Positions 5,191 through 54,350 of a DNA stretch of 64,000 bases are shown here, one piece after another (the first letter of the stretch is position 1; every line of letters starts with the position of its first letter). Below the pieces are notes generated by a model, which saw only the letters and a program-made list of their open reading frames with translations, had not been told where the DNA came from and ran no database searches. The stretch is taken from the NCBI GenBank assembly GCA_023957995.1, contig JAMLGK010000010.1, positions 62,001 through 126,000 of the forward strand. Direction: 5' to 3'. Position numbers and translations under genes: made by a program. The DNA is from Microthrixaceae bacterium. GTDB taxonomy: Bacteria > Actinomycetota > Acidimicrobiia > Acidimicrobiales > Microtrichaceae.

Positions 5191-6539
5191 GGACAGGCGG
5201 CACCCCGCTACCGGCAGCGCCGACCGACGTCGAGCTGGTAGCGGGGATGCGGGCCGGCGACCGGGCTGCGCTCGGCACCGCATATGACCGCTATGCCACC
5301 GAGCTGTTCGACCTCTGCGTGCGGACCGGCGGCCGCGACGACGCCGAGGACGCGGTACAGGACACCTTCCTGAGCGCCATGGCGTCCATCGACCAGCTCC
5401 GAGAGCCTTCCAAGCTCCGACCGTGGTTGTTCAGCATCGCGCGCAACCGGGTCCGCCGCCGTGGACGTTCCCATGAGATGGCCTCCGACTCCCTCGACGA
5501 CCTGGCCACCGAGACCGCCGAACCTGATTCGAGGTTGGTACGACAGGAGCAGGCCGAGGTGTTGGAGACGGCGCTCGGCGGACTCGAATCCCAGGACCGA
5601 GAGGTGGTGCTCCTGAGGGATCGTCACGGTCTCGACGGTTCCGAGGCGGCCTTCGTGCTCGGAACCGACCGGGCAACCGTCGACCGTCGCCTCCACGAGG
5701 CGCGCCAGCGACTCCGACGCTCGGTGGTGGCCTGCGCGGTCGGAGCGCACAACGCCAACGGTTGCGAAGAACTGGCTCGCCTGCGCGGTGGGGGCACCTT
5801 CTCCCCGACGGTACGCAAACGCGTTTCGCGTCACATCGAGCGGTGCGAGGCGTGCAGCCGCAGCGCCGAGCAGACGGCCACCCCGGCGAGCCTGCTCGGT
5901 ACCCTCCCGATGCTCGTTCCACCGATCGCGCTCCGCCGGAGGCTGCTCTCGGCATTTGCCCCGACAGGAGACGACGCGCCCGGCGACGCGGCGCAGACTC
6001 CGCCGATGGATCCGAGCCGTGCCGCTCCGGTGGGAACGGGATCGACCCGGGCGCTGACCCTTCTCGGCGGAGCGGCGGCGGTGACAGCACTGGTCGTGGC
6101 CGGCTGGTTCATGTTCCGCCTCGGTGTCGAGGACTCCGAGACGGCCGGAGCTGGGCAAGCGGCCGCGAGGGATGTGACGCCGGACTCGACCGAGCCGGAG
6201 CCCGACAACGTGCCACCGCTGCCCGAACCGGCCGATCCGTCTCCGAGCTTCTGTGACGTGGTGGACGAAGCCCGGGGTTGGTATGCCGAGAATCCGGGTC
6301 CGGCCTCCGCCGATCCCGCGGCCGTGCAGGCCTACTTCACCGGGAGCCTGAGCCGCCTGACCGAACTGACCGAGCTCGCCCCTGCAGATCTCCGCGACGA
6401 GCTCGGGCAGTACACCGACGCCATGGCGGCACTGGTGGCCTCCCTCGCGCCGACCTGGGATCTCACCTCCAGCGGGCCCGCCAGCGACCTGGTCGGCCTG
6501 CGCGACCTTCTCGAAACGGAGCTGGCGCAACGCTGCTGA
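5187..6539 (+). CDS. ECF sigma factor fused to anti-sigma-like zinc motif, membrane anchor and external domain
   Basis: 450 residues. Sigma region 2 spans about 13-92 (AEDAVQDTFLSA, then WLFSIARNRVRR) and region 4 about 125-180 (REVVLLRDRHGL ... ATVDRRLHEARQRLRR). After these comes a Cys/His segment with H216-x3-C220-x2-C223, the signature of zinc-binding anti-sigma domains, then a Pro-rich linker, one membrane segment (about 290-311) and an acidic external domain of about 130 residues. This is a sigma factor, its likely restraint and a sensor in one chain, probably membrane-tethered until released (inference). GTG at 5187 overlaps the stop of the DUF6777 lipoprotein gene, the natural partner or ligand. 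Confidence 0.85.
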   Translation: MRTGGTPLPAAPTDVELVAGMRAGDRAALGTAYDRYATELFDLCVRTGGRDDAEDAVQDTFLSAMASIDQLREPSKLRPWLFSIARNRVRRRGRSHEMASDSLDDLATETAEPDSRLVRQEQAEVLETALGGLESQDREVVLLRDRHGLDGSEAAFVLGTDRATVDRRLHEARQRLRRSVVACAVGAHNANGCEELARLRGGGTFSPTVRKRVSRHIERCEACSRSAEQTATPASLLGTLPMLVPPIALRRRLLSAFAPTGDDAPGDAAQTPPMDPSRAAPVGTGSTRALTLLGGAAAVTALVVAGWFMFRLGVEDSETAGAGQAAARDVTPDSTEPEPDNVPPLPEPADPSPSFCDVVDEARGWYAENPGPASADPAAVQAYFTGSLSRLTELTELAPADLRDELGQYTDAMAALVASLAPTWDLTSSGPASDLVGLRDLLETELAQRC

Positions 6540-26867: not shown

Positions 26868-27311
26868 TCAGGGCATCTCGTCGAGCTTGTCGGTGCGTCG
26901 ACTGTGGCGGCCGCCCTCGAAGGACGCATCCAGCCATGCGTCGACCGCTGCCAGCGCCACGGACTCGCCGGTAAGACGCGCTCCCAGGCAGATCACGTTG
27001 GCGTTGTTGTGCTGACGTGCGAGTCGGGCCGAGGTCTCGTCGTGCACCGTGCCGGCGCGCACCCCGTGCACCTTGTCGGCTGCCATACAGATACCGATGC
27101 CGGACCCACACACGGCCACGCCGAGATCAGCATCACCACCGGCGACGGCGCGACCCACCGCTGCGCCGTAGTCGGGGTAGTCGACGCTCTCATCTGAGTT
27201 GGTCCCGAGGTCGAGGACCTGCACACCCCGGTCTGCGAGGTGTTGCGCGATCACATCCTTGAGCCTGAATCCCGCATGGTCGGCTCCAAGTGCAATGGTG
27301 GTGTCGGTCAC
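26868..27311 (-). CDS. rpiB: Ribose-5-phosphate isomerase B
   Basis: 147 residues, whole RpiB/LacAB fold. GADHAGF at the N-terminus, CGSGIGI phosphate loop with the catalytic cysteine and [17 protein letters not shown] are diagnostic. Interconverts ribose 5-phosphate and ribulose 5-phosphate in the cytoplasm. GTG start overlaps the stop of the dioxygenase gene by 4 bases (GTGA). Confidence 0.94.
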
Positions 27312-28000
27312 CCCGACAGGCTACGCCAGCGGCGCGCCTCGAAAAACCCTCCGGGTCGGTGGACCGTGGCGGTTGCCCCCGGGCTCCAGCGCCAGGAGGC
27401 GGAGACCCTCGGGCCCATCGGACGGCTGCTCTTGGGAACCGCGTGTTCGAAATCGGCCTGGCACCGGCCACCCATGACCACCACGTCACCGGAGGCGGGA
27501 GAGAGGTCGAGGGAGGTACCCCCGCCGCGAGGACGCACGAGGAACGGACGCTGCTGACCCAACACCAGTATCGCCACGACCGATTCCTCCACCGAGGTGA
27601 GCTCGCGGTCCGAGTGGAACGCAACCGAATCCTGACCGTCCCGGTAGTAGTTCAACCCGACGCCGCCTAGTGCGCCCCCTCGCAGCCGACCCCGGTAGCG
27701 CCTATCGAGGTTCTGCCGAACCGCTGCCAACAGCGGATGTGGATCGCCCCGGTCGAACCCGTACCAACGCGACAGTCGCGGATCGTCGACCTCACGGTCG
27801 TACATCCAGCGCCGGCCGACCCTCCAGTCGGTGCGTGAGACCAACTCCTCCAACAGGTCGTCCGCACCGCCCAGCACGCCCCGACCGACCTCCAGCCAGG
27901 AGCCGGGAGCGATGTCGATCCGCTCGAAGGCCACGGAACGAACCTCGGCTGGACCGGCGGTCAGAAGGTTCCCCTGCAGTGCCTCAGCAGCTGGCGACAT
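27308..28000 (-). CDS. AlkB-type 2-oxoglutarate/Fe(II) dioxygenase
   Basis: 230 residues. Iron ligands in the AHSD-like HSD motif (SVAFHSDREL) and in HAVPKSSR, and the 2-oxoglutarate arginine in RVSASWRW; NYYRDGQDS precedes, as in AlkB. Such enzymes reverse alkyl damage on DNA or RNA. ATG 28000 is chosen; a longer frame reaches into the operator and divergent gene. Stop overlaps the rpiB start by 4 bases, an odd pairing of repair and sugar metabolism. Confidence 0.88.
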   Translation of the reverse strand: MSPAAEALQGNLLTAGPAEVRSVAFERIDIAPGSWLEVGRGVLGGADDLLEELVSRTDWRVGRRWMYDREVDDPRLSRWYGFDRGDPHPLLAAVRQNLDRRYRGRLRGGALGGVGLNYYRDGQDSVAFHSDRELTSVEESVVAILVLGQQRPFLVRPRGGGTSLDLSPASGDVVVMGGRCQADFEHAVPKSSRPMGPRVSASWRWSPGATATVHRPGGFFEARRWRSLSG

Positions 28001-28076: not shown

Positions 28077-28092
28077 TTGACCACCTGGTCAA
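28077..28092. promoter_or_regulatory. Perfect palindrome TTGACC-ACCT-GGTCAA
   Basis: 16-base palindrome in the 106-base region between the dioxygenase (minus) and thiolase-like (plus) starts, 14 bases before the GTG at 28107. Identical in its half-sites to the palindrome before the acyl-CoA dehydrogenase gene (52287-52302). TetR-type operators have this size and symmetry. Confidence 0.6.
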
Positions 28093-28106: not shown

Positions 28107-29606
28107 GTGAATATCGATCCCAGGACTCCCGTCATCGTCGGCGCCGGCCAATTCCTCAACCGGGTCGACCGCGGAGCCGACCCGCTGTCGCCGGTCGGAC
28201 TGATCCTCGAAGCGCTCCGGGCCGCCGAGAAAGACGCCGGTGTAGCCGGGCTCGCCTCGAGCGCCGAGGTGTTCGGCACGACCCACATGCTCTCGTGGCG
28301 CTACCGGGACCCCGGCCGGCTCGTGGCCGACGCGGTCGGGGCCGACCGGGCGAAGACCTGGTATCCCTCCAACGGCGGCAACACACCCCAGATGCAACTC
28401 AACCGGATGGCTCGGCTGATCAGCGAGGGCGAGCTGGACACAGCGGTGCTGAGCGGTGCGGAGGCATGGAACACACGAACCAGCGCCAAACGGGCCGGCA
28501 CCCGTGCCGAGTGGGAGGAACAGCCGGATTCCGTGGTCGCCGACTGGGGCAGCGAGGACACCTTCACGATGGGACACCCTGCCGAACATGCGAAGGGAAT
28601 CGTCGCTCCGGTGCAGGCCTACCCACTCTTCGAGACCGCTCTGATCCACCGTGCGCTCGTCGAGAACCCCGGCCGGACCCTGGCCGAACAGATCGCTCTG
28701 ATCGGCGAGATGTGGGCTGGATTCTCCCGGGTGGCGGCGGACAACCCCTATGCATGGAACCGCGAAGCCCTCACTGCCGAGGAGATCACGACCGCCACGC
28801 CCGGGAACCGCTTCGTGGGTTGGCCCTATACGAAGCGAATGGTGTCGTATCCGTCGGTCGACATGGGTTCAGCCCTGATCGTCACCAGTGCGGAGGCCGC
28901 ACGGGCAGCTGGGATCCCGACCGACCGGTGGGTGTTCCTGTGGAGCGGCACCGACGGGGTCGACCTCGTGATGTCCGAGCGGGAGAGCTTCACCCGCTCA
29001 CCATCGATCGGAGTGGGAGGCCGACGAGCGCTGGAGCTGGCCGGGGCCGACCTCGACGAGGTGGACCACCTCGACGTGTACTCGTGCTTCCCGTCCGCGG
29101 TCGAGCTGTTCTGCCGGGAGTTCGAACTCGATCCGTTGAGCCGACCGCTGACCGTCTACGGAGGTCTGGCGTTCGCCGGCGGCCCGTGGAACAACCCCGT
29201 GGGCCACGCACTGGCCTCGATGGTGCACGTCCTGCGGGGCGGTTCCGGCGAGTTGGGTCTGGTGACCGCCAACGGAGGGCACGTGGACAAGCACGCCTTC
29301 GGAGTGCTCGGTAGCGATCCACCACCCAACGGGTTCCGCTACGACCGCCCACAGGCGGAGATCAGTGCTTCAGCTCAGCGACGGGATGTCCTGACCGAGT
29401 TCGAGGGCCCCGCCGAGGTCGAGAGCTGGACCGTGATGCACGACCGCGACAACCAGCCCGAGAAGTACCTCGGCAGTTGCCTCACCTCCAACGGAGAGCG
29501 CGTCTGGGCCACCAGCACCGAGCCTGATGTGATCTCCGCGGCCACCTCGAGCGATCTGGGCGGAGCGCAGGTGCGGTTGGACCGCGACGGCACGCTGCAC
29601 ATCTGA
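28107..29606 (+). CDS. Thiolase-like protein (TLP1/acetyl-CoA acetyltransferase family)
   Basis: 499 residues. Thiolase-fold (RTPVIVGAGQF at the N-terminus, PVGHALASMVH, GLVTANGG near residue 390) plus a C-terminal OB-like domain of about 100 residues (from about 400), the layout of mycobacterial thiolase-like protein type 1. The nucleophilic cysteine expected in the first half is replaced by the SNGGNTPQ segment and the second catalytic cysteine (CxGGG) by TANGG, so ordinary thiolase chemistry is doubtful. Start GTG 28107 is 14 bases after a TetR-like operator. Confidence 0.85.
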   Translation: MNIDPRTPVIVGAGQFLNRVDRGADPLSPVGLILEALRAAEKDAGVAGLASSAEVFGTTHMLSWRYRDPGRLVADAVGADRAKTWYPSNGGNTPQMQLNRMARLISEGELDTAVLSGAEAWNTRTSAKRAGTRAEWEEQPDSVVADWGSEDTFTMGHPAEHAKGIVAPVQAYPLFETALIHRALVENPGRTLAEQIALIGEMWAGFSRVAADNPYAWNREALTAEEITTATPGNRFVGWPYTKRMVSYPSVDMGSALIVTSAEAARAAGIPTDRWVFLWSGTDGVDLVMSERESFTRSPSIGVGGRRALELAGADLDEVDHLDVYSCFPSAVELFCREFELDPLSRPLTVYGGLAFAGGPWNNPVGHALASMVHVLRGGSGELGLVTANGGHVDKHAFGVLGSDPPPNGFRYDRPQAEISASAQRRDVLTEFEGPAEVESWTVMHDRDNQPEKYLGSCLTSNGERVWATSTEPDVISAATSSDLGGAQVRLDRDGTLHI

Positions 29607-50945: not shown

Positions 50946-51082
50946 TACTTCTTCTGCTCGACCTTCGGCTCGCGGGGTAGGCCGAGGACCCACGTCCTCC
51001 GACCCCACCCGACCACCCTCCTGGTCGACCTCGGCCTACTTCTTCTGCTCGACCTTCGGCTCGCGGGGTAGGCCGAGGACCC
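50946..51082. repeat. 46-base direct repeat: 3' end of the acyl-CoA dehydrogenase gene duplicated
   Basis: Bases 50946-50991 repeat exactly at 51037-51082. The second copy is the last 15 codons of the dehydrogenase (VLGLPREPKVEQKK plus stop); the first lies 91 bases away, just past the gene, without an in-frame stop. The 45 bases between are not repeated. Confidence 0.95.
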
Positions 51083-52277
51083 TCTCTCCGACGATGTTCC
51101 GCTGGATCTCCGCGGTGCCGCCCCAGATCGTCTCGGAACGCGAGAAGAAGAACGCCGACATCATCTGGCTCACGGGATAGGTGTCACGGCCCTCGGCGCG
51201 CATCGTGGCCGGCCAGGACACCTCCTCACCGGCGGTGGAGAGGAACGACTCGGTACCCCAGATGTGCAGCGCCAGTTCCATTGCGTCGCGGTGCATCTCC
51301 GACCAGAACATCTTGTTGGTGACACCGAGCACGGTCACAGCCGGGTCCTTGCGCTTCTGGACCGTGGCCGTCAGGGAACGCAGGCCGTTGATGCGCAGGA
51401 TCTGCACCTTCGTGAAGTACCGCATCAGACCCTGGCGCACGAGCGGGTCCTCGATGGCACCGTTCTCGGTGGCCTTGGCCACCATCTGGGTGTACTCCTC
51501 CTCGAAGCGCCGGTATCCGGTGGTGGCCGACATCCCACGCTCGAAACCGAGCGTGTCGTTCGCGACCTTCCAGCCGTTGTTGACCCCACCCACGACGTTG
51601 TCGATCGGACAACGGGCATCGGAGAAGAACACCTCGTTGAACTCAGCCGTGCCGTCGGGCTGGGTGATTCCGCGCACCTCGATCCCGTCCTGCTTCATCG
51701 GAACCAGCAGGTAGGAGATGCCGGCCTGCTTCTTCACATCAGGATCGGTGCGGGCGAGCACGAAGCAGTAGTCGGCGAACTGGGCCTGGGTGGTCCAGAC
51801 CTTCTGGCCGTTGATGACCCACTCATCGCCATCGCGCACGGCAGTGGTCTTGAGCGAGGCGAGATCGGATCCCGAGTCGGGTTCGGAGAAACCCTGGCAC
51901 CAACGCATCGACCCGTCGAGGATCTTGGGCAGGAAGAACTTCTTCTGCTCCTCGGTGCCGTTCATGAGAATCGTGGGTCCCACCAAGGTGTCGCCGAAGA
52001 AGTCGGCCCGCATGGGCGCCTTCGCCTTCGCGAACTCCTCTGCGAGTACCACCCCCTGCATCGTCGAGAGCCCCTTGCCCCCGTATTCCTCGGGCCAGGT
52101 GGCACAGATCCAGCCACCCTCGTGGAGCTTGTGCGTCCAGTCCTCGATGAACGCCTTCTTCTCCTCGGGCGACATCTCGAAATCCTCATCGCCCCAGCCA
52201 TCCGGGAGGTTCTGATCCAGCCATGCACGGATCTCGGTACGAAACTCTTCAGCTTCAGGGGGGTAGCTCAGGTCCAT
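51036..52277 (-). CDS. Acyl-CoA dehydrogenase
   Basis: 413 residues, FadE type. FAD-dependent alpha,beta-oxidation of an acyl-CoA; electrons go to EtfAB (encoded at 62022-63796). CQGFSEPDSGSDLA, WTTQAQFADYC (FAD loop) and SRSETIWGGTAEIQRNIVGERVLGL (final catalytic-loop helix) are all seen. ATG 52277 lies 8 bases after a TetR-type operator. 3' end duplicated downstream (see repeat). Confidence 0.94.
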   Translation of the reverse strand: MDLSYPPEAEEFRTEIRAWLDQNLPDGWGDEDFEMSPEEKKAFIEDWTHKLHEGGWICATWPEEYGGKGLSTMQGVVLAEEFAKAKAPMRADFFGDTLVGPTILMNGTEEQKKFFLPKILDGSMRWCQGFSEPDSGSDLASLKTTAVRDGDEWVINGQKVWTTQAQFADYCFVLARTDPDVKKQAGISYLLVPMKQDGIEVRGITQPDGTAEFNEVFFSDARCPIDNVVGGVNNGWKVANDTLGFERGMSATTGYRRFEEEYTQMVAKATENGAIEDPLVRQGLMRYFTKVQILRINGLRSLTATVQKRKDPAVTVLGVTNKMFWSEMHRDAMELALHIWGTESFLSTAGEEVSWPATMRAEGRDTYPVSQMMSAFFFSRSETIWGGTAEIQRNIVGERVLGLPREPKVEQKK

Positions 52278-52285
52278 GTCCCAAT

Positions 52286-52303
52286 CTTGACCGTTCGGTC
52301 AAG
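52286..52303. promoter_or_regulatory. Perfect palindrome CTTGACCG-TT-CGGTCAAG
   Basis: 18-base palindrome, 8 bases upstream of the acyl-CoA dehydrogenase ATG. The core TTGACC-N4-GGTCAA (52287-52302) is the same as at 28077-28092. It would lie across a possible TTGTCC (-35) and CAAGAT (-10) spacer on the minus strand. Confidence 0.65.
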
Positions 52304-52426: not shown

Positions 52427-53563
52427 TCAGCCCTCGGTGACGAAACCGATGCTGACAGTGTCGGAGGTGCAGCCGTCAGAGGTGGTGGTGCTCACGTCGA
52501 GCACCCCGGGAATGGCCCGGATCGCCCGCATGAGTGCGGCTCCGTCCTCGTTGCCGAGATCCGCTTCGAGCGATCGGACCCGGGCCTCGATCGAGTCGGT
52601 GTCCGCAGCCGATCCGACGCTGAGGGTGACCTCGCACAGAACCGTCGGTCGGAGTGGGCCCTCGACGATGTCTGCCGGAGCGGGCTCGTCGACCTCGGGG
52701 GCGCTCCCGAAGTCCGCATAGGAATACCGCCTCGACCCGTCCGGGTTGCCAGGAATGCTGAGCGAGACGATGTACCCGTCGCGCACCTCGACCGTGGCCG
52801 TGCAGTTCACGTCACACGGGGCGAGGGCGGAGAGGGTCACCTCGAACTCACCCGCGGTTTCCGTCGCCGTCGCACTGGCAGGGTCGATGTTCGCAATGAG
52901 CGTCAGCGAGGCCTCCATCAGCTGGCGGTACTCGTCCTCGGTCACCCCGAAGTCCTCGGCGTTCCAGACGTCGTCCTCGACCCAGGCCCCCGGCCGGCAC
53001 GGTGGCGCGTCCGACTCGGCGCAGGCCTCGACCAGGCCGGGGCCGGAACCCAGAGCCATCTGCGCGCTGCCGAGGGTAGCCATGAGTACCGTTGCGTACG
53101 GTCGGCCCTGCGTTGGATCGGCCGGGTTGTAGGTGACGATCGACAACTCAGCGGAGCCATCGTCGTTGCCAACCTCGGCATCGGCAACCCACGACGTCGA
53201 CATCGTGCGTTGCAGCGCATTGCCCACCACTTCGGCCGGCGGGCCGTCCGGGACCGAAGCCACGACCGTGCCGGAACCCGCGGGATCAGTGCTGTCCACC
53301 GCTGTCGAGCCATCGCGCGTCACTATCCACGCACCGATGGCCACGAGAACGACCACCGCCGCAGCAACAGCCAGGAGCGGAGCACTCCGGGCCCTGTGCA
53401 CGTCGTCGAGGTGGACCACCGTGCCACCGGGTTCGGTCGACACGTCCGCACCGACGGTGCCCGGTGCGTCCTCGGTGGACACAGAGCTCGGGTCGTCCAG
53501 GGAGACATCGCCGACCGCCCGCGCGGCGCCGTCCTGAAGTCTCTGATCGAGCCAATCGTTCAT
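52427..53563 (-). CDS. Membrane protein, probable anti-sigma partner
   Basis: 378 residues: cytoplasmic N-terminus of about 60 residues, one membrane helix (about 63-81), and a large acidic external part with several Cys (ACAESDAPPC, CDVNC, CEVTL, DGC). No zinc HxxxCxxC motif is present. Encoded directly after the sigma factor with a 4-base overlap (ATGA), which is why an anti-sigma or signal-receiving role is inferred. External domain family not recognised. Confidence 0.78.
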   Translation of the reverse strand: MNDWLDQRLQDGAARAVGDVSLDDPSSVSTEDAPGTVGADVSTEPGGTVVHLDDVHRARSAPLLAVAAAVVVLVAIGAWIVTRDGSTAVDSTDPAGSGTVVASVPDGPPAEVVGNALQRTMSTSWVADAEVGNDDGSAELSIVTYNPADPTQGRPYATVLMATLGSAQMALGSGPGLVEACAESDAPPCRPGAWVEDDVWNAEDFGVTEDEYRQLMEASLTLIANIDPASATATETAGEFEVTLSALAPCDVNCTATVEVRDGYIVSLSIPGNPDGSRRYSYADFGSAPEVDEPAPADIVEGPLRPTVLCEVTLSVGSAADTDSIEARVRSLEADLGNEDGAALMRAIRAIPGVLDVSTTTSDGCTSDTVSIGFVTEG

Positions 53564-54210
53564 CGCGGCACCTCCGTGCTGTTTCCATCGGCGGGTTCGC
53601 CGGACTCAGGGTGGACTCGCAGTGACGTCGCCAGAGCGGCACGTCCCCTGCTCAGGTGGACCTTGACGGTCGATTCGGACACTCCCATCGCTGCGGCACA
53701 GTCGGTGACCGCAAGATCGACGAGGTGGTGCAGCACCACGGCTTCACGTTGACGTTGGGGCAGGCCCGCCAGGGCCCGCTCGAGGTCGACGTCGACCCCC
53801 TCGGCGCGGGGGTCATTGCGCCGGTGCTCCCCCGCCTGCATGCGGGCCAGGCCTGCCTCGGCCACCTTGGAGCGCCTCCAACCTCCCCGCACCAGGTTGA
53901 GGGCGACCGTCCGCGTCCAGGCCACCGGGTTGGAACCCTCAGCGGAGATCTGATCCCAGTCGCGCCAGGCTCTCACCATGGCCTCCTGCGCCACATCGCG
54001 GGCATCCTCGCGATCGGTTGTCAGACCCCAGCAGAATCGCACCAGGGCGTTCTGTTCCGAGGCGAAGAACTCGCCGTAGTCAGCGGCACCGGAGGATTTC
54101 CCGACACCACCAGATTGTTGGTGCTGTTGCACTTCGCTGCTCTCCCCCGCCCGTCCGCCGGCGCACAGCTGCGCCGCGGAAGGGACCTGTTCAAGTGTTG
54201 TCCGTGGCAT
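53560..54210 (-). CDS. ECF sigma factor (SigE-like, SACE group)
   Basis: 216 residues. Region 2 (EQNALVRFCWGLTTDREDARDVAQEAMVRAWRDWDQI) starts near residue 55 and region 4 (LPQRQREAVVLHHLVDLAVTDCAAAMGVSESTVKVHLSRGRAAL) ends it. The N-terminal 45 residues are poor; ATG 54210 is the listed start, later ones are possible. Transcribed with the membrane partner downstream; divergent from the FrhB-like gene. Confidence 0.88.
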   Translation of the reverse strand: MPRTTLEQVPSAAQLCAGGRAGESSEVQQHQQSGGVGKSSGAADYGEFFASEQNALVRFCWGLTTDREDARDVAQEAMVRAWRDWDQISAEGSNPVAWTRTVALNLVRGGWRRSKVAEAGLARMQAGEHRRNDPRAEGVDVDLERALAGLPQRQREAVVLHHLVDLAVTDCAAAMGVSESTVKVHLSRGRAALATSLRVHPESGEPADGNSTEVPR

Positions 54211-54350
54211 CACACATGGACCAACGCGGCACATCCGCTGCCGGACGACACGATGCCGACAATTTCTCTCCGGATCATCGACGAGGCTCCACCACACCGC
54301 TCGTGCAACCCACGTTTGGCTCGGCGGCCCGCTCGCCTAGGGTGCGGGCC

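Follow-up and report, generated by a model that had tools for sequence, protein, structure and literature searches.

A palindrome upstream of lipid-catabolic genes in Acidimicrobiia as the putative operator of a FadR-like TetR regulator

Two identical palindromes in a 64-kb window

The stretch of DNA analyzed here (the window) comprises 64,000 nt (C2:62001-126000) from a genome of 3.54 Mb that is spread over 36 contigs. A pattern scan of the window yields exactly two perfect TTGACC-N4-GGTCAA palindromes, one in front of an acyl-CoA dehydrogenase gene and one in front of a thiolase-like gene, which is divergent from an AlkB-like gene.

27308-28000 (-): AlkB-like 2OG-Fe(II) oxygenase (PF13532), divergent from the thiolase-like gene
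28077-28092 (no strand): putative operator palindrome TTGACC-ACCT-GGTCAA, TTGACCACCTGGTCAA, 14 bp upstream of the GTG (28107) of the thiolase-like gene
28107-29606 (+): thiolase-like acetyl-CoA acetyltransferase of the TLP1 / PRK08257 group (PF18313), putative target
51036-52277 (-): acyl-CoA dehydrogenase, FadE-type (Pfam Acyl-CoA_dh_N/M/1), putative target
52287-52302 (no strand): putative operator palindrome TTGACC-GTTC-GGTCAA, TTGACCGTTCGGTCAA, 9 bp upstream of the acyl-CoA dehydrogenase ATG

The sequence-only reading of this DNA had described two palindromes with identical half-sites lying 8-14 bases before start codons, which is exact, as the measured distances of 9 bp and 14 bp show. 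An outer C/G pair extends the palindrome at 52287-52302 to 18 bp (52286-52303), and the ACCT center of the palindrome at 28077-28092 deviates from the preferred G..C. Three more copies with two mismatches occur in the window, which is the level of chance. For the acyl-CoA dehydrogenase, we took the ORF start at 52277, because the start given by the gene caller is too short; its top NCBIfam model is pimC_large, with a score well under the cut-off of that model. The thiolase-like gene likewise falls below the cut-off of NF006103 (PRK08257.1-1; 484.5 bits versus 757). Directly upstream of the acyl-CoA dehydrogenase, the interval 52427-54297 (-) encodes an ECF-type sigma factor (53560-54297) and, after it, a protein with no Pfam match; the two are possibly a sigma/anti-sigma pair.

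The ATG of the AlkB-like gene is 76 bp from the palindrome at 28077-28092, and this gene had been proposed as a possible further member of the regulon. That proposal found no support: the protein is of the DNA-repair type (PF13532) rather than the alkane hydroxylase, and no palindrome precedes its homologues among the relatives examined.

Genome-wide distribution and conservation of the sites

The exact palindrome occurs ten times in the genome, versus 0.42 copies expected under a base-composition model (P(≥10) ~3e-11), and a control pattern, the palindrome read backwards, has no exact copy in the genome. Whether the motif might be just as common inside genes had been raised as a check; all ten copies lie outside called genes, none more than about 140 bp away from a gene start, with strong enrichment before lipid genes. 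The genome holds 15 one-mismatch copies and 15 control copies with up to one mismatch; given this lack of excess, an individual copy is trustworthy only if it is exact or, with one mismatch, stands before a lipid gene. Across 61 relatives, there are 211 exact sites versus 18 control sites. It is very probable that the palindrome is a genuine DNA switch, and we treat it as a putative operator.

We compiled the regulon from the genes behind the ten exact sites of this genome. The palindrome stands before some ten genes or operons, many with roles in fat breakdown, and three one-mismatch sites mark probable further members.

L016, exact site: SCP2-like protein and divergent alpha/beta hydrolase
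L017:2665-5864, exact site: glycosyltransferase operon
L018:6038-8463, exact site: MoxR-type ATPase and CoxE-like VWA protein
L019, exact site: MpaB-like oxygenase
L020, exact site: SDR (hydroxyacyl-CoA-dehydrogenase-like)
L021, exact site: second acyl-CoA dehydrogenase
L022, exact site: alpha/beta hydrolase, then a CoA-transferase-like gene (the latter named from sequence only)
L023, exact site (palindrome at 6001-6016): TetR gene P0001, divergent from another gene
Window, remaining two exact sites: acyl-CoA dehydrogenase and thiolase-like gene
L024, one-mismatch site: enoyl-CoA hydratase (named from sequence), probable member
L027, one-mismatch site: divergent acyl-CoA ligase/thiolase pair (FadD/FadA), probable member
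L030, one-mismatch site: third acyl-CoA dehydrogenase, probable member

In relatives, exact sites precede the orthologues of the FadD/FadA pair at L027 and of the acyl-CoA dehydrogenase at L030. We fetched 103 exact sites from 18 relatives, 67 of which precede an orthologue of a target in our genome. Sites accompany the orthologues of the SDR gene in nine genomes, always 1 bp before the aligned start, and those of the window acyl-CoA dehydrogenase in seven other genomes, always 9-11 bp before the gene; they are also found at orthologues of the alpha/beta hydrolase of L022 (nine genomes), the dehydrogenase of L021 (six) and the glycosyltransferase (five). The site of the thiolase-like gene is kept in one distant relative only (G037, 44% identity). 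Eight aligned promoters of the window acyl-CoA dehydrogenase and its orthologues share all 12 half-site bases, with variation at the four central positions and in the flanks; the consensus of the sites reads CTTGACC-GNNC-GGTCAAG. Acyl-CoA dehydrogenases make up 26 of 124 site-adjoining genes (putative targets) versus no more than 1 among the 121 remaining genes of these loci.

No target, beta-oxidation genes included, is conserved as widely as the MoxR-type ATPase, whose orthologues carry the site in 13 genomes (L208, L214, L224, L225, L234, L238, L244, L252, L258, L262, L267, L281 and L290). The glycosyltransferase operon, unusual in a fatty-acid regulon, is a conserved target up to the order level. 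That a MoxR/CoxE-type gene recurs so constantly among the targets raises a question that lends itself to testing. We tentatively raise the idea, which we think unlikely, of a lipid master switch specific to Acidimicrobiia whose most conserved target is the MoxR ATPase / CoxE-like VWA pair, outside beta-oxidation. If this were true, fatty-acid catabolism would need a MoxR/CoxE-dependent maturation step that lies outside the FadR regulons compared.

A TetR gene that carries the palindrome

One regulator gene is itself preceded by an exact site, 14 bp before its start (L023:6001-6016).

G000:C34:9360-10019 including stop (-), outside the window: TetR-family regulator P0001, 219 aa

P0001 has an N-terminal TetR_N helix-turn-helix (PF00440, E = 4.8e-15, above the cut-off). 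The genome encodes 38 TetR-type genes, and among the best-scoring 30 of these 38, which we inspected, no gene but P0001 has an exact site within 1.5 kb, and none but P0001 encodes the helix GKGVFYWYF. The nearest paralogue of P0001 in this genome lacks that helix. Another candidate reader of the palindrome, a paralogue in this genome at C32:2446-3003, was rejected, as it has the helix VTKPVLYQHF and no palindrome nearby.

Matches to P0001 at E ≤ 1e-20 occur in 46 of the 61 relatives, the weakest being paralogues, and 80 named loci match, with titles mostly from Acidimicrobiales, Microthrixaceae and unplaced Actinomycetota MAGs. An orthologue is present in Aquihabitans sp. G128 (L189), a relative with an isolate genome. 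The helix reads VGKGVFYWYF in every one of 77 orthologue sequences. We examined 110 orthologue loci, some of them representing one genome twice; the palindrome near the start is exact at 55 and has one mismatch at 18 (73 of 110), and a control half-site, CCAGTT, is never found there with under three mismatches. A site of the autoregulation type, a palindrome at the regulator's own gene, is thus present in our genome and at most orthologue loci, which ties a TetR gene to the motif as the sequence-only reading had proposed to check.

Presence of an orthologue and presence of the motif go together among the 61 relatives (38/40 versus 6/21, Fisher p = 8e-8), as do an orthologue and at least two sites among 197 members of the class (25/31 versus 9/166, Fisher p = 9e-19); both p-values assume independent genomes, an assumption that does not hold, and they overstate the strength of the association. 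These computations establish the regulon, the conservation of its sites and the link between motif and TetR gene. They also support the earlier proposal that one unseen TetR regulator governs a lipid-catabolic regulon reaching both loci, as P0001 is a TetR gene outside the window that bears the palindrome. The palindromes at its own gene and across the regulon are consistent with binding of a P0001 dimer to a palindromic operator.

Proposed mechanism, alternatives and known systems

By sequence profile, the best solved relative of P0001 is the FadR of Sulfolobus acidocaldarius, SaFadR (6EL2/6EN8, 2.3e-24; next match, 1e-19). An AlphaFold model of a P0001 orthologue (pLDDT 92.7) is all-helical with nine helices, and its closest matches by fold are the DNA complexes of SaFadR and, second, FasR. 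A lipase and beta-oxidation cluster is under repression by SaFadR, which also binds the control region of its own gene and which long acyl-CoA releases from DNA (PMC6449355). The DNA-essential Gly48 and the CoA-contacting Arg73 of SaFadR align with Gly65 and Arg90 of P0001, both of which are invariant in the orthologues. Overall identity to SaFadR in the structural alignment is low, at about 24%, so the ligand could differ.

Taken together, we consider it probable, at roughly 85%, that the palindrome is the operator of P0001 and that P0001 is an acyl-CoA-responsive TetR repressor of fatty-acid catabolism. We infer direct binding by P0001, repression and acyl-CoA as the ligand. A P0001 dimer would occupy both half-sites just before the start codon and, when acyl-CoA is scarce, block transcription of genes for fatty-acid breakdown. 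Its targets would include several acyl-CoA dehydrogenases, the thiolase and acyl-CoA ligase pair, the enoyl-CoA hydratase, the SDR, alpha/beta hydrolases, SCP2 and the thiolase-like protein, together with the MoxR/CoxE pair, the glycosyltransferase operon and its own gene. Accumulating long-chain acyl-CoA would then release P0001 from DNA, as it does Sulfolobus FadR; the one feature of P0001 that bears on such release is the conserved Arg90, aligned with the CoA-contacting Arg73.

P0001 might instead bind the palindromes as an activator or dual regulator resembling FasR, or respond to another ligand, such as a branched, dicarboxylic or steroid acyl-CoA. We regard this as the less likely alternative, one that still carries some weight: the second-best match by fold, FasR, is an activator (PMC7382501), the window acyl-CoA dehydrogenase is nearer to a pimeloyl-CoA dehydrogenase model than to the classical FadE models, and the MpaB-like oxygenase, MoxR/CoxE and glycosyltransferase targets are unusual for a plain fatty-acid regulon. 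However, most sites are found a short way ahead of start codons, where a bound protein would be well placed to block transcription; repression is the mode of most TetR proteins (PMC7382501); and it is SaFadR that gives the best sequence-profile match.

The palindromes could also be operators of a lipid regulon that are read by another regulator, with P0001 merely one of the targets. Some of the exceptions to the main reading would fit this explanation, namely orthologues in genomes without the motif and the motif in genomes without a detected orthologue. In genus g8 (relatives of IMCC26207; L074-L079, L130-L134), the TetR gene is kept and the palindrome at this gene is lost, with four to six palindromes elsewhere in most genomes; G030, G032 and G222 have the TetR gene and no motif enrichment, even with one mismatch. 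Conversely, the motif is present and no orthologue is detected in G018 and G033, two fragmented, incomplete genomes. Four other genomes (G036, G038, G051 and G231) were rejected as exceptions of this kind, that is, motif without a close orthologue, as their motif counts are near the control level. The best exception, G240, with 11 sites, has a sister TetR with the nearly identical helix AKGLFYWYF and a palindrome of its own upstream, which speaks against another kind of reader. So do the tight co-occurrence of orthologue and motif over 197 genomes, the frequency of the palindrome at the orthologue's own promoter and the invariance of the recognition helix, and we consider a different binder improbable.

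The sister subfamily with helix AKGLFYWYF (G034, G045, G240 and others, in other families of Acidimicrobiales) has the same half-sites, often with another center, and five of its loci have an exact or one-mismatch TTGACC-N4-GGTCAA upstream (L272, L289, L319, L320 and L323). Because the half-sites are shared, the bare pattern can mix two regulons in those genomes. Among phylum-wide relatives, in family f63, we found no palindrome.

The substrates of KstR are sterols, and a steroid regulon had been suggested for the window. Assignment of its palindromes to a steroid-catabolic KstR/KstR2 regulon is very improbable: the distant matches of P0001 include KstR2 and further TetR structures, and the SCP2 and SDR targets could serve sterols, but SaFadR and FasR match P0001 better, the targets are general beta-oxidation genes, and the operator is unlike the KstR motif TnnAACnnGTTnnA (PMC1995591), which has zero matches in the window. 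Chance recurrence of a 12-base pattern in a GC-rich genome, to which the mere two copies in the window and the control-level number of one-mismatch copies might point, is rejected on the counts in relatives, the expectation model (ten exact copies versus 0.42, none in called genes) and the conservation data, with sites kept before orthologous genes at fixed distances and a footprint visible in the alignment.

Knowledge of the class Acidimicrobiia comes mostly from uncultured genomes; for lipid catabolism in this class, the operator reading of P0001 provides a concrete putative regulator-operator pair and a list of targets. Among the relatives is Candidatus Microthrix, the filament that stores lipid in bulking activated sludge, and Microthrix-titled loci are among the P0001 orthologues, one with a one-mismatch site (L137). 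Our literature search, with most subscription papers outside its reach, found no description of a TTGACC-N4-GGTCAA operator. The regulon is well supported, new and of a known kind, putatively FadR-like TetR control of fatty-acid catabolism.

Among known systems, KstR of mycobacteria is likewise an actinobacterial TetR repressor with a large, scattered lipid regulon, autoregulated via a palindrome found by comparative alignment, although its operator is different (PMC1995591). The title of the FdmR paper cited in PMC8728441 names a repressor of fatty-acid catabolism in mycobacteria, and FdmR is set beside P0001 on that title only. FasR of Mycobacterium tuberculosis is an acyl-CoA-sensing TetR protein (PMC7382501); unlike the repressor proposed here, it activates fatty-acid synthesis genes, and P0001 scores 52.7 bits versus the NF053731 cut-off of 330. 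The FadR proteins of Thermus thermophilus and Bacillus are TetR repressors of fatty-acid degradation that answer to acyl-CoA. The Thermus consensus, TTRNACYNRGTNYAA (PMC5597230), differs from TTGACC-N4-GGTCAA, with TTGACC not fitting TTRNAC, whereas the Bacillus type is set apart by score (33.1 bits versus the NF053878 cut-off of 200), below the match to SaFadR. SaFadR itself (PDB 6EL2/6EN8) is a TetR protein with a 16-bp dyad-symmetric site, compared here by length and symmetry rather than by letters, and it has one site at its own gene and controls beta-oxidation and lipase genes (PMC6449355); its key DNA-contacting Gly and CoA-contacting Arg align with P0001. It is archaeal, with four genomic sites centered on one 30-kb cluster, whereas the putative sites of P0001 are spread over ten or more scattered operons. 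P0001 shares two features of the FadR-type functional group, a putative operator before several beta-oxidation genes and an autoregulation-type site at its own gene.
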